From the NCBI GenBank assembly GCA_003285105.1, contig CP030158.1, positions 3,268,664 to 3,332,663 on the forward strand: 64,000 nucleotides of DNA, given 5' to 3'. The translations under genes and the position numbers were made by a program. Position 1 is the first letter of the stretch; each line of letters starts with the position of its first letter. The notes under the pieces were generated by a model. The model did no database searches. It had not been told where the DNA came from and saw only the letters and a list, made by a program, of their open reading frames with translations. Source of the stretch: Roseithermus sacchariphilus. Its GTDB lineage: Bacteria > Bacteroidota > Rhodothermia > Rhodothermales > MEBIC09517. This document shows, piece by piece, positions 17,055-21,009 of this stretch.

Positions 17055-18047
17055 ATGCCTCTGAGACGTCTGACGCGGCTCACCCGGCTCACCCGGCTCA
17101 CCCTTGTCCTGCTTCTGCTCGGGGTGTGCGGCTGCCGTTCCGAGCCGGCGGCGGACCGGCCCGCTGCGCCCGCTGTGCCTGCTGTGCCGCCGACGGTGCC
17201 GGTGGTGGAGGGGCCGTTGCCGGCGCCGCCGGACGACGTGGCGATTCCGGACGGCATGGCCTTCATCCCGGGCGGGACGACGCTGATCGGGGCGCTGGAC
17301 GGCACGCCGCTGGAGCGTCCGCCGTTCGTGGCCGAGGTGGAGCCCTTCCTGCTGGATCGCCACCCCGTCACCGTGGCCGAGTTCCGGCGCTTCGTGGAGG
17401 CGACCGGCTACGTGACCGAAGCCGAACGCTTCGGGGATGCCGGTGTCTTCGACCTGGAGACGCGCACCTGGCGGCTGGTGCCGGGTGCTACCTGGGCGTA
17501 TCCGCTCGGCCCCGACGCTCCCCCCGCGCCGGACGATCATCCCGTGACGCAGGTTTCCTGGAACGATGCAAAGGCGTACCTGGACTGGGCCGGCAAGCGC
17601 TTCCCGACGGAGGTGGAATGGGAGCACGCCGCCCGGGGCGCGCGCAACCTGCGCCGGCCCTATGCCTGGGGTGCGGAGCTCGGCACCGGCGCCGCGGCGC
17701 GTGCCAACACCTGGACCGGCGTCTTCCCCCATACCAACACCGCCGAGGACGGATACCTCTACACGTCTCCGGTCGGGGTCTTCGGGGAGACCGAACTGGG
17801 CCTGACCGACATGGGGGGCAACGTCTGGGAATGGTGTGCGGACTGGTTCCGTCCCTACGACCAGCGGGACCGCCCCTTCCGCCCCGACGCCTCCAGCGAG
17901 AAGGTGCAGCGCGGCGGCTCGTTCATGTGCCATGCCTCGTATTGTCACGGCTACCGCGTCTCCGGGCGCAGCCATTCCACGCCGGAAACGTCCCTGTTCC
18001 ACGTCGGCTTCCGGGGGGCGCGGGACCTGTACGTCGAGGGTTCCTGA
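17055..18047 (+). CDS. Lipoprotein formylglycine-generating enzyme (SUMF1/FGE family) with both active-site cysteines
   Basis: 330 aa. The signal peptide ends in a lipobox-like GVCGC near residues 25-29, so the protein is probably lipid-anchored outside the inner membrane. Residues about 65-325 are an FGE-sulfatase domain: FLLDRHPVTVAEFRRF, RFPTEVEWEHAARG and LTDMGGNVWEWCADW. Near the end, GGSFMCHASYCHGYR contains Cys292 and Cys297 in the CxxxxC pattern used by true FGE to bind copper and oxidise a sulfatase cysteine. Many bacterial SUMF1-domain proteins lack this pair. No sulfatase gene is in the window. The signal peptide contains four 9-bp repeats (17070-17105) that code for LTR/LTL. The cupin gene follows 59 bp later. 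Confidence 0.82.
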   Translation: MPLRRLTRLTRLTRLTLVLLLLGVCGCRSEPAADRPAAPAVPAVPPTVPVVEGPLPAPPDDVAIPDGMAFIPGGTTLIGALDGTPLERPPFVAEVEPFLLDRHPVTVAEFRRFVEATGYVTEAERFGDAGVFDLETRTWRLVPGATWAYPLGPDAPPAPDDHPVTQVSWNDAKAYLDWAGKRFPTEVEWEHAARGARNLRRPYAWGAELGTGAAARANTWTGVFPHTNTAEDGYLYTSPVGVFGETELGLTDMGGNVWEWCADWFRPYDQRDRPFRPDASSEKVQRGGSFMCHASYCHGYRVSGRSHSTPETSLFHVGFRGARDLYVEGS

Positions 18048-18609: not shown

Positions 18610-19323
18610 CTACGATGCCGGGCCCGTTCGGTCGAAATGGGCTGTCAGGTCGTGCTGTATCGTTGTGAGGTCGGACACATCGCGCACGATGCGTCCTTCG
18701 TCCATGATCAGGACGCGGTGTATGAAGTCTGCGATCTCGGGCACGTTGTGACTGGTAAGCAGGATCGTGGTATCGAGATGTCGATGAAGCCTGAGTAGCA
18801 GGTGTTTCAGGTGTTCCCGGGTCGGTGGGTCCAGGTGGTCGAACGGTTCATCGAGAACGAGCAGGCGGGGGTGTACCAGGAGCGCGGCCGACAGCCCTAC
18901 GCGCTGCTTGTTTCCGGTCGAGAGCGTGCGAATGTACGATGGTGTGGTGAGAAGCGAATCGGGTATGAGGGGGGATAGCCCTGCGATACGCTCGTGGATC
19001 TCCGACCTGTCGAGGCCATAGGCCGTGCCTACGAAGAACAGATACTCGGTTGGCGTGAGGAAAGGAATCAGGAAGCCCTCTTCCAGGTAGGCTGCGGCGT
19101 GCATCTTCCAGGCGGTAGACCGGCGAACGTCGTGTCCGTCGATGAGGACCTGTCCTTCGGTGGGGACGACCAGATCCAGGATGAGACGCAGCAGCGTCGT
19201 CTTGCCCGCGCCGTTACGCCCAATCAGTCCGACGATCTCTCCGGCGGAGAGGGTTAGCGAAGGAACGTCGACCGCTGTGGTGGAAGGGTAGCGTTTTATG
19301 AGATGGTGCAGCCGGACGTGCAT
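18610..19323 (-). CDS. ABC transporter ATP-binding protein
   Basis: 237 aa. Walker A is GRNGAGKT (35-42), the Q-loop region is AAYLEEGFLIPFLT, the signature is TLSTGNKQRV, Walker B is LLVLDEPFDHLD, and the H-loop is LLTSHNVPE. The signature LSTGN differs from the common LSGGQ but is normal in exporters of the CcmA/NatA class. It starts 4 bp after the membrane subunit gene ends, so the two are co-transcribed. Substrate unknown. Confidence 0.9.
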   Translation of the reverse strand: MHVRLHHLIKRYPSTTAVDVPSLTLSAGEIVGLIGRNGAGKTTLLRLILDLVVPTEGQVLIDGHDVRRSTAWKMHAAAYLEEGFLIPFLTPTEYLFFVGTAYGLDRSEIHERIAGLSPLIPDSLLTTPSYIRTLSTGNKQRVGLSAALLVHPRLLVLDEPFDHLDPPTREHLKHLLLRLHRHLDTTILLTSHNVPEIADFIHRVLIMDEGRIVRDVSDLTTIQHDLTAHFDRTGPAS

Positions 19324-19327
19324 GGGT

Positions 19328-20815
19328 TCAGGCTGTTCGGAGATGAGCGAGAAGATGGTATTTGTGGTGGGTCAGGTGGGTTTCGCACAGCCTCAACCAG
19401 TGTGGGTACAGCAACAAGCCGGCTATTCCAACGAGGGCCAGGAGAAGCAGCCCGTAGCCTCCCACCCACAGCCCAAGAGCTGCCGGTCCGATCAGGATCA
19501 GCACCAGGCTGATGAGCCTCAACGGCCGCCGGTAGGTGTTGCCGGCACCGCTAGTCAACGCATGAGGATGCAGTTCAATCCGTACGGTGTGGACCGGGGC
19601 CTGCCAGATCAACACCGGATGGACGAACCCCGTGAGATACACATACGACACCCCGAGCCATGTGAGTACCTCTGCATCGAGCCGCGCCAGCAACACCCAC
19701 GTTCCGACTGCCGACAGAAACGTCAGAGAAGCCAGCACAAAGGCGAGCCAGAGCAGGCTCCCTGCCAGCGCGCGGCCCGGGAGCGGCCAGGTAAACAAGC
19801 CGTCGGCGTGGGTATACTGCCAGCCGAACACGCTGAGCAGGAACTGAGCCGAGCCCAGTATCAAAAAAGGAACGCCGAGAAATAGCGGAAGCAAGGCGTC
19901 CTGCCTGGACGCGTTGATCAACTGTACGCTCCCCATGAACCCGAACAGTACGGTGAGGTACAGGAGAAGTCGCGTGACGCGGTGCCGCCAGAGTAGTCGC
20001 CACTGGAGCCATACCATGAACCGTGTTGGTGTGCGGCTCCAGCGAGAGTGTACGGTGGACGTCGTCGGTGCGCGGCTCATGAAAAGGTGATCGACGTAGA
20101 GGTAACGCCGGGTGAGCAGGAAAGCCGGTACGTAGAAGAGGCCGTTCAATGCGATGAGGCCCGTCAGGCCTGTGAAGCGGCCGGTCAGTATCGCATCGAA
20201 GGTGTGCCGGGCCAGCCAGGTCAGCCCGCCGTACATCCCCGCCAGGCCGAGGCCCACGAGGCCGCTCAACCAGATCAGCACGTACGCTTCGGGCCGAGTA
20301 AAGCGAAGTGCCCGCAGGAGGTTGGCCGTCCACTGGGCAGCGGTCAACAACGACAGGGCCATGAGCAGCCAGCCCATGGCCGGTAGCCACGCGTGGGATA
20401 AAACGAGGCTACGTAGCCAGTAACCCAGCATGAAGCCTGCTAGCAGGGCATTGCCTCCATGCAACGGACTGAGCACCTGGAGGACGTGGGCCAGCCACGT
20501 GTGAGATACCGGGAGCAGCAACCAGGGCCGTACGGGTAACGCCGGCCTCCGTTGCCAGAGGGAGAGCAGGAAGGGCCAGAGGAGGATCCATGCCAGCAAC
20601 AACCGGTGTACCAGGCTCAGAGGATCCATGCCGGGCAGGACCCGACTCAGGGCGGGTTCCAACAGCCCCCCGAGAAGCATCGTGAAGGCCACACCCACGA
20701 CGTGGAGCAACCGGAGCCCCCATCGCTCCAGGGAGTGCCCGGAAGATCCGCGGAACCCGCCGATAAACCACAGCAACAGGAGCGCCCGGTACCGGCGCAG
20801 GTCATGCAGGGACAT
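19328..20815 (-). CDS. DUF5687-like ABC transporter membrane protein
   Basis: 495 aa from ATG 20813-20815 (MSLHDLRRYRALLLLW). About ten to twelve hydrophobic segments run the length of the protein, with a cytoplasmic Arg-rich stretch in the middle (SRWSRTPTRFMVWLQW). Size, layout and pairing with a downstream ATPase fit DUF5687, the ABC-2-like permease of Bacteroidota. The family call rests on recollection of that layout rather than a definite motif. The frame is open upstream to 20992, but the extra part looks non-coding. Confidence 0.7.
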   Translation of the reverse strand: MSLHDLRRYRALLLLWFIGGFRGSSGHSLERWGLRLLHVVGVAFTMLLGGLLEPALSRVLPGMDPLSLVHRLLLAWILLWPFLLSLWQRRPALPVRPWLLLPVSHTWLAHVLQVLSPLHGGNALLAGFMLGYWLRSLVLSHAWLPAMGWLLMALSLLTAAQWTANLLRALRFTRPEAYVLIWLSGLVGLGLAGMYGGLTWLARHTFDAILTGRFTGLTGLIALNGLFYVPAFLLTRRYLYVDHLFMSRAPTTSTVHSRWSRTPTRFMVWLQWRLLWRHRVTRLLLYLTVLFGFMGSVQLINASRQDALLPLFLGVPFLILGSAQFLLSVFGWQYTHADGLFTWPLPGRALAGSLLWLAFVLASLTFLSAVGTWVLLARLDAEVLTWLGVSYVYLTGFVHPVLIWQAPVHTVRIELHPHALTSGAGNTYRRPLRLISLVLILIGPAALGLWVGGYGLLLLALVGIAGLLLYPHWLRLCETHLTHHKYHLLAHLRTA

Positions 20816-20874
20816 CGAGACCTCGACTTCTGCACGTGTCAAGATAGGGGCGGTGCACGTTGATCTTTCCTGCT

Positions 20875-20903
20875 TTGCAACGCGAGGATCTGCAAAATAC
20901 ATT
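20875..20903 (+). promoter_or_regulatory. Candidate promoter of the rhamnose isomerase gene
   Basis: TTGCAA (20875-20880), 17-bp spacer, TACATT (20898-20903), about 107 bp before ATG 21010. Confidence 0.5.
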
Positions 20904-21009
20904 ATCGCCGGAGCCGTAGCTTCCCCATCGTGCACCGTCGGCTCCACGTTCGGGCTCGCACGAAGAGAGCCATTTCCGACCACCGAAACCATACAACCTG
21001 CGTGGCATC

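Follow-up and report, generated by a model that had tools for sequence, protein, structure and literature searches.

A predicted lipoprotein formylglycine-generating enzyme of Roseithermus sacchariphilus, the unlinked sulfatases of its genome, and export signals across the enzyme family

Formylglycine-generating enzymes (FGEs) depend on copper and oxygen and act on unfolded substrates, and formylglycine in sulfatases is also made by anSME (TIGR03942), a member of the unrelated radical-SAM family. The closest described FGEs are those of Streptomyces coelicolor and Thermomonospora curvata (2q17, 6muj, 6s07, 5nyy), in which Cu(I) is coordinated by two active-site Cys (available text of PMC7279497), and prokaryotic FGE is stated to reside in the cytosol (accessible portion of PMC4505483). 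The human enzyme (SUMF1) is soluble in the ER and bears an N-terminal extension with C50/C52 (available text of PMC7279497). The FGE fold also occurs in lipoproteins of the GldK/PorK type.

The FGE studied here is encoded at 17055..18047 (+) of the window, i.e., the 64-kb stretch of R. sacchariphilus DNA that was analyzed, in a frame with an ATG start and 330 amino acids plus stop, and its FGE/SUMF1 catalytic domain covers residues 66-323 (17250..18023, +; PF03781, 215 bits). It has the same domain, Cys pair, and neighboring Ser and Tyr as the S. coelicolor and T. curvata copper enzymes (about 43-45% identity in the fold alignment), from which it differs by a lipoprotein signal, as against the cytosolic location given for prokaryotic FGE (same portion of PMC4505483), and by a loop before the VPGATW stretch that is about 14 residues shorter. 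Domain and Cys pair are likewise shared with human FGE at about 42% identity and, by analogy with that ER enzyme, the window FGE is predicted to take the Sec route and to meet its substrates outside the cytosol, whereas its stretch from Cys27 to Cys261 is free of any further Cys. It shares fold and lipoprotein nature with the GldK/PorK proteins but falls far under the GldK cut-off and possesses the FGE Cys pair. To our knowledge, this pair is lacking in GldK/PorK.

The putative catalytic residues Cys292 (17928..17930, +) and Cys297 (17943..17945, +), copper ligands by homology, sit in GGSFMCHASYC, with the remaining Cys of the protein at positions 25, 27, and 261. A PDB sequence search returned FGEs as the top twelve matches (198-213 bits), followed by the human paralogue SUMF2 at 128 bits, and the alignments placed Cys292/Cys297 on the Cys pair of the solved FGEs and Ser289 and Tyr296 in register with their active-site stretch. 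The preliminary description had named a lipoprotein FGE with Cys292/Cys297 in FMCHASYC, and the ORF, the numbering, and these alignments agree with it. The structure model, built from 20 sequences, had a mean pLDDT of 84.0 and a pTM of 0.81, with the active-site loop modeled less surely (mean confidence 67 for residues 291-300). Its nearest PDB folds were the T. curvata, S. coelicolor, and human FGEs, the T. curvata enzyme being first (E 5.8e-28, 44% identity). Sequence, fold, and catalytic Cys pair thus support the window protein as a true FGE. Membership in four NCBIfam families was rejected, namely GldK (81.6 bits vs. a cut-off of 350), EgtB (92.7 vs. 360), SenA (103.3 vs. 420), and PvdO (57.9 vs. 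500). Elsewhere in the window, an ABC-transporter ATPase adjoins a DUF5687 membrane protein (18610-20992, -), the two probably forming a single exporter.

The lipoprotein signal peptide (residues 1-26) and lipobox Cys27 (17055..17135, +) were recognized from the sequence, the heuristic caller, and the aligned orthologue lipoboxes. Residues 1-27, MPLRRLTRLTRLTRLTLVLLLLGVCGC, comprise a basic n-region, a hydrophobic core, and a V-C-G-C lipobox at Cys27, in the same position as in the orthologues, some of which are of the LAGCR type. Signals were called throughout with a home-made heuristic and reading by eye, without SignalP; the heuristic erred at times and four loci (L172, L215, L152, L083) were re-read by eye. 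By signal and lipobox the window FGE is therefore a predicted bacterial lipoprotein, and since an export signal is present its natural reading is an enzyme acting outside the cytoplasm, in line with the earlier proposal that the signal peptide implies extracytoplasmic action. Within the n-region the 9-mer CGGCTCACC (Arg-Leu-Thr) occurs in three identical units (17076..17102, +), preceded by a synonymous RLT at 17067-17075, which gives Arg-Leu-Thr four times over 17067-17102. A repeat within the signal-coding part, together with a Shine-Dalgarno that is not obvious in the sequence, would suit a pseudogene or a miscalled start and hence no lipoprotein at all, a reading made most improbable by the intact 330-codon frame and by orthologues with a lipobox at the same place.

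The preliminary description had reported no sulfatase in the window, and the PF00884 profile search likewise found none within the 64 kb. The whole genome (one contig, 4.81 Mb) gave eight matches, of which seven were above the cut-off. All seven carried C-x-P-S-R and an export signal, with a lipobox in four and a plain signal in three; for one of them (L014) the signal was taken from inspection by eye, the start chosen by the heuristic being implausible. The sulfatase nearest to the window FGE lies 564 kb away. The genome-wide search for signal-bearing CxPxR sulfatases proposed earlier therefore yielded targets, and an orphan FGE without substrate was rejected given the seven CxPSR sulfatases. 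The puzzle of the missing partner is resolved because the genome encodes seven exported sulfatases that are unlinked to the FGE, and the oddity implied by the preliminary description falls away, the partners being merely unlinked and the orthologues in many relatives adjoining a sulfatase. The alternative maturase anSME (TIGR03942) was not detected in the genome, where three candidates were scored, and was rejected as the maturase of these sulfatases. The SUMF1 domain had eight matches in seven genes, one ORF having been hit in two pieces, and the window FGE was the only one of the seven with the Cys pair, so that one Cys-pair FGE faces seven exported Cys-type sulfatases. In two others, both without the Cys pair, the domain is fused to a caspase-like (L002) or a Ser/Thr kinase-like (L004) domain, as read by eye from the translations.

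Sixty genomes of the order, own included, were compared using thresholds of > 180 bits for a close FGE and E <= 1e-20 for PF00884. A close FGE was present in 23 of the 60, and at least one sulfatase occurred in 23/23 genomes with it vs. 24/37 without it, the other 13/37 having none (Fisher p 0.0009, kinship ignored). A sulfatase was located within about 3 kb of the FGE in 14 of the 22 orthologue neighborhoods read, and none was that close in eight, three of which were on contigs < 6 kb. The sole sulfatase (E <= 1e-20) of each of three genomes (G002, G010, and G046) adjoins the FGE. As evidence for FGE function, this linkage in relatives outweighs what the window could offer by itself. The sulfatase signature was recognized in 33 of 36 loci by a pattern that allowed Ser, and all 33 had Cys. 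FGE matches occurred in 36 order genomes, and the 30 places read (own included) comprised 27 with a lipobox, two with a signal or membrane anchor, and one cut frame. Conservation of the Cys residues, doubts about which had been raised as a possible objection, was found in close orthologues: both were invariant in the 14/14 aligned, and two Cys were present in 30/30 order places, although with CxxC rather than CxxxxC spacing in 5/30. One orthologue (L097; G002:C1 about 1659142-1659926) was split over two frames and adjoins the only sulfatase of that genome at E <= 1e-20. At another locus (G034:C1:1378668-1381336; L116, L315), an anSME gene adjoins a sulfatase with the Tat-like signal SRREFLK, pairing a cytosolic maturase with a sulfatase whose export probably takes place in the folded state.

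These comparisons bear on the suggestion that the window protein is a SUMF1-fold protein with another job, either a structural lipoprotein of the GldK/PorK kind or another oxidase, in which the Cys pair is merely retained. SUMF1-fold lipoproteins of such a kind exist, PorK being among the PDB sequence and fold matches, and the FGE of this genome is unlinked to a sulfatase. The GldK, EgtB, SenA, and PvdO scores far under their cut-offs, the conserved Cys pair, and the orthologues adjoining sulfatases nevertheless render it very unlikely.

The reading regarded as highly probable is a periplasm-facing Sec lipoprotein FGE, lipidated at Cys27, that oxidizes the CxPSR Cys of the seven exported sulfatases with Cu(I) and O2. 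In such a mechanism the enzyme would be exported by Sec, lipidated, and anchored facing the periplasm; copper, whatever its source, would be loaded there and held as Cu(I) by Cys292/Cys297; and the C-x-P-S-R Cys would be oxidized, using O2 and with a reductant taking part, as the sulfatases emerge unfolded from Sec. The substrates would be the seven Cys-type sulfatases with export signals whose genes lie elsewhere in the genome. Modification might instead take place in the cytosol, by the precursor FGE and before either protein is exported, with an incidental lipid anchor. Such a course would fit the cytosolic location of prokaryotic FGE (accessible portion of PMC4505483), the co-expression of the FGE Rv0712 with sulfatases in Escherichia coli, by which cytosolic maturation works (available text of PMC6923384), and the exported sulfatases that adjoin three signal-less FGEs. 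It is nonetheless improbable in view of the lipobox retained in 27/30 order orthologues read and of the brief stay of a Sec lipoprotein in the cytosol.

The location of FGEs was followed in a wider set comprising the best 80 of 563 confirmed relatives from a contig scan, which leans towards the clade of the window FGE, and a contrast set of 20 plasmid loci chosen for diversity from 40 listed of 96 records. Two Persicobacter plasmid loci (L201 and L214), in which no FGE with the Cys pattern was found, were dropped, and three cut or frame-split FGEs (L095, L097, and L183) were kept outside the class counts. The heuristic assigned 65 of 118 FGEs to lipoproteins, 33 to a signal or anchor, and 20 to no signal, counts that are not frequencies as the tree sample is not unbiased. 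For the tree, two labels were changed by eye (L215 to no signal and L152 to anchored). On the 118-row quick tree the location label changed four times compared to a mean of 18.8 for shuffled labels (0/500 as low). Exported FGEs prevailed in this tree, including 32 of the 33 rows in the clade of the window FGE. A well-supported signal-less clade of 15 rows contained Streptomyces, Nonomuraea, Bacillota, haloarchaea, and some Rhodobacterales and Rhizobiales, and five further signal-less rows (L172, L193, L198, L200, and L209) lay elsewhere. An exported FGE is thus not peculiar to this organism. A signal is present in most of the FGEs read, one cytosolic clade excepted, which suggests that the cytosolic placement of prokaryotic FGE (accessible portion of PMC4505483) applies to only part of the family. 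No description of an exported bacterial FGE was found in the literature searched, mostly titles and abstracts with thin coverage of subscription journals. N-terminal to the FGE domain, a CC or CxC motif was present in 14/20 signal-less vs. 11/98 signal-bearing FGEs (e.g., L140, L199, L202-L208, L210, L213, L216, L217, and some Bacteroidota loci) and absent from the window FGE; a Cys-bearing N-terminal extension has been called unique to higher eukaryotes (available text of PMC7279497).

The compartments of FGE and closest sulfatase were compared at 61 loci. By the heuristic calls both were exported at 45 loci and neither at ten, only the sulfatase at four, and only the FGE at two, i.e., agreement at 55/61 loci (Fisher p 6e-7). 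The label changes for L215 and L152 gave 45, 11, four, and one (both, neither, sulfatase only, and FGE only), and re-reading also L083 and L172 gave 46, 12, three, and zero, raising the agreement to 58/61. The remaining exceptions (L198, L200, and L217) combine a signal-less FGE with an exported sulfatase, which points either to additional cases of maturation ahead of export or to misread starts. At L217 the sulfatase signal is Tat-like, a feature that would be compatible with such early maturation; Tat-like motifs were flagged also in the sulfatases of four loci with an exported FGE. Only three independent pairs on the tree could be contrasted across well-supported branches, a number insufficient for testing, and since the agreement follows clades it is a consistent description rather than statistical proof.

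The CxxC spacing occurred in FGEs reading GGSF-x-C-x-x-C from five order genomes (G006, G047, G081, G086, and G088; loci L084, L094, L218-L221, and L230). They are three residues shorter and have neither the Tyr before the second Cys nor the Arg four residues after it. In each of these genomes the CxxC FGE was the only Cys-pair SUMF1 protein among the loci read, with some weak SUMF1 loci unscored, and nearly all sulfatases with a recognized signature have Cys. The CxxC gene lies about 0.4 kb from a sulfatase in G086 and 0.8 kb in G081. Nine further order genomes (G013, G018, G024, G030, G045, G048, G052, G055, and G058) had 7-31 PF00884 matches each, and their sampled sulfatases (L306-L314 and L316-L319, at least one per genome) all had Cys, and most were exported. 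The 29 loci scored among the 38 matches in these nine genomes (eight not fetched and one unscored) contained no Cys-pair SUMF1 protein, nor was there a TIGR03942 match at E <= 1e-30; drafts may lack genes, but G024 is one contig. The four genomes of family f14 among them encode one SPASM protein each, which is also found in relatives that have an anSME. The nine sulfatase-rich genomes are candidates for another maturation route.

The window enzyme itself is an ordinary member of a known family, and the interest left is its predicted extracytoplasmic location, common to many bacteria. On balance it appears probable that in Bacteroidota, Rhodothermota-like orders, Balneolota, Planctomycetota, Verrucomicrobiota, and Acidobacteriota, groups that make up much of the bacterial FGE tree, membrane-anchored copper FGEs mature sulfatases outside the cytosol in an ER-like manner, that the actinobacterial cytosolic FGEs are one branch, and that FGE location tracks the sulfatase export route. 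If this is true, the statement of a cytosolic FGE in a reducing cytosol (accessible portion of PMC4505483) would be valid for part of the family only, and FGE and sulfatase could be co-exported for the production of active sulfatases from Bacteroidota and Planctomycetota. Activity in the CxxC variants would reveal how much alteration the copper site tolerates. A periplasmic workplace for many bacterial FGEs would also require a supply of copper and electrons to that compartment.
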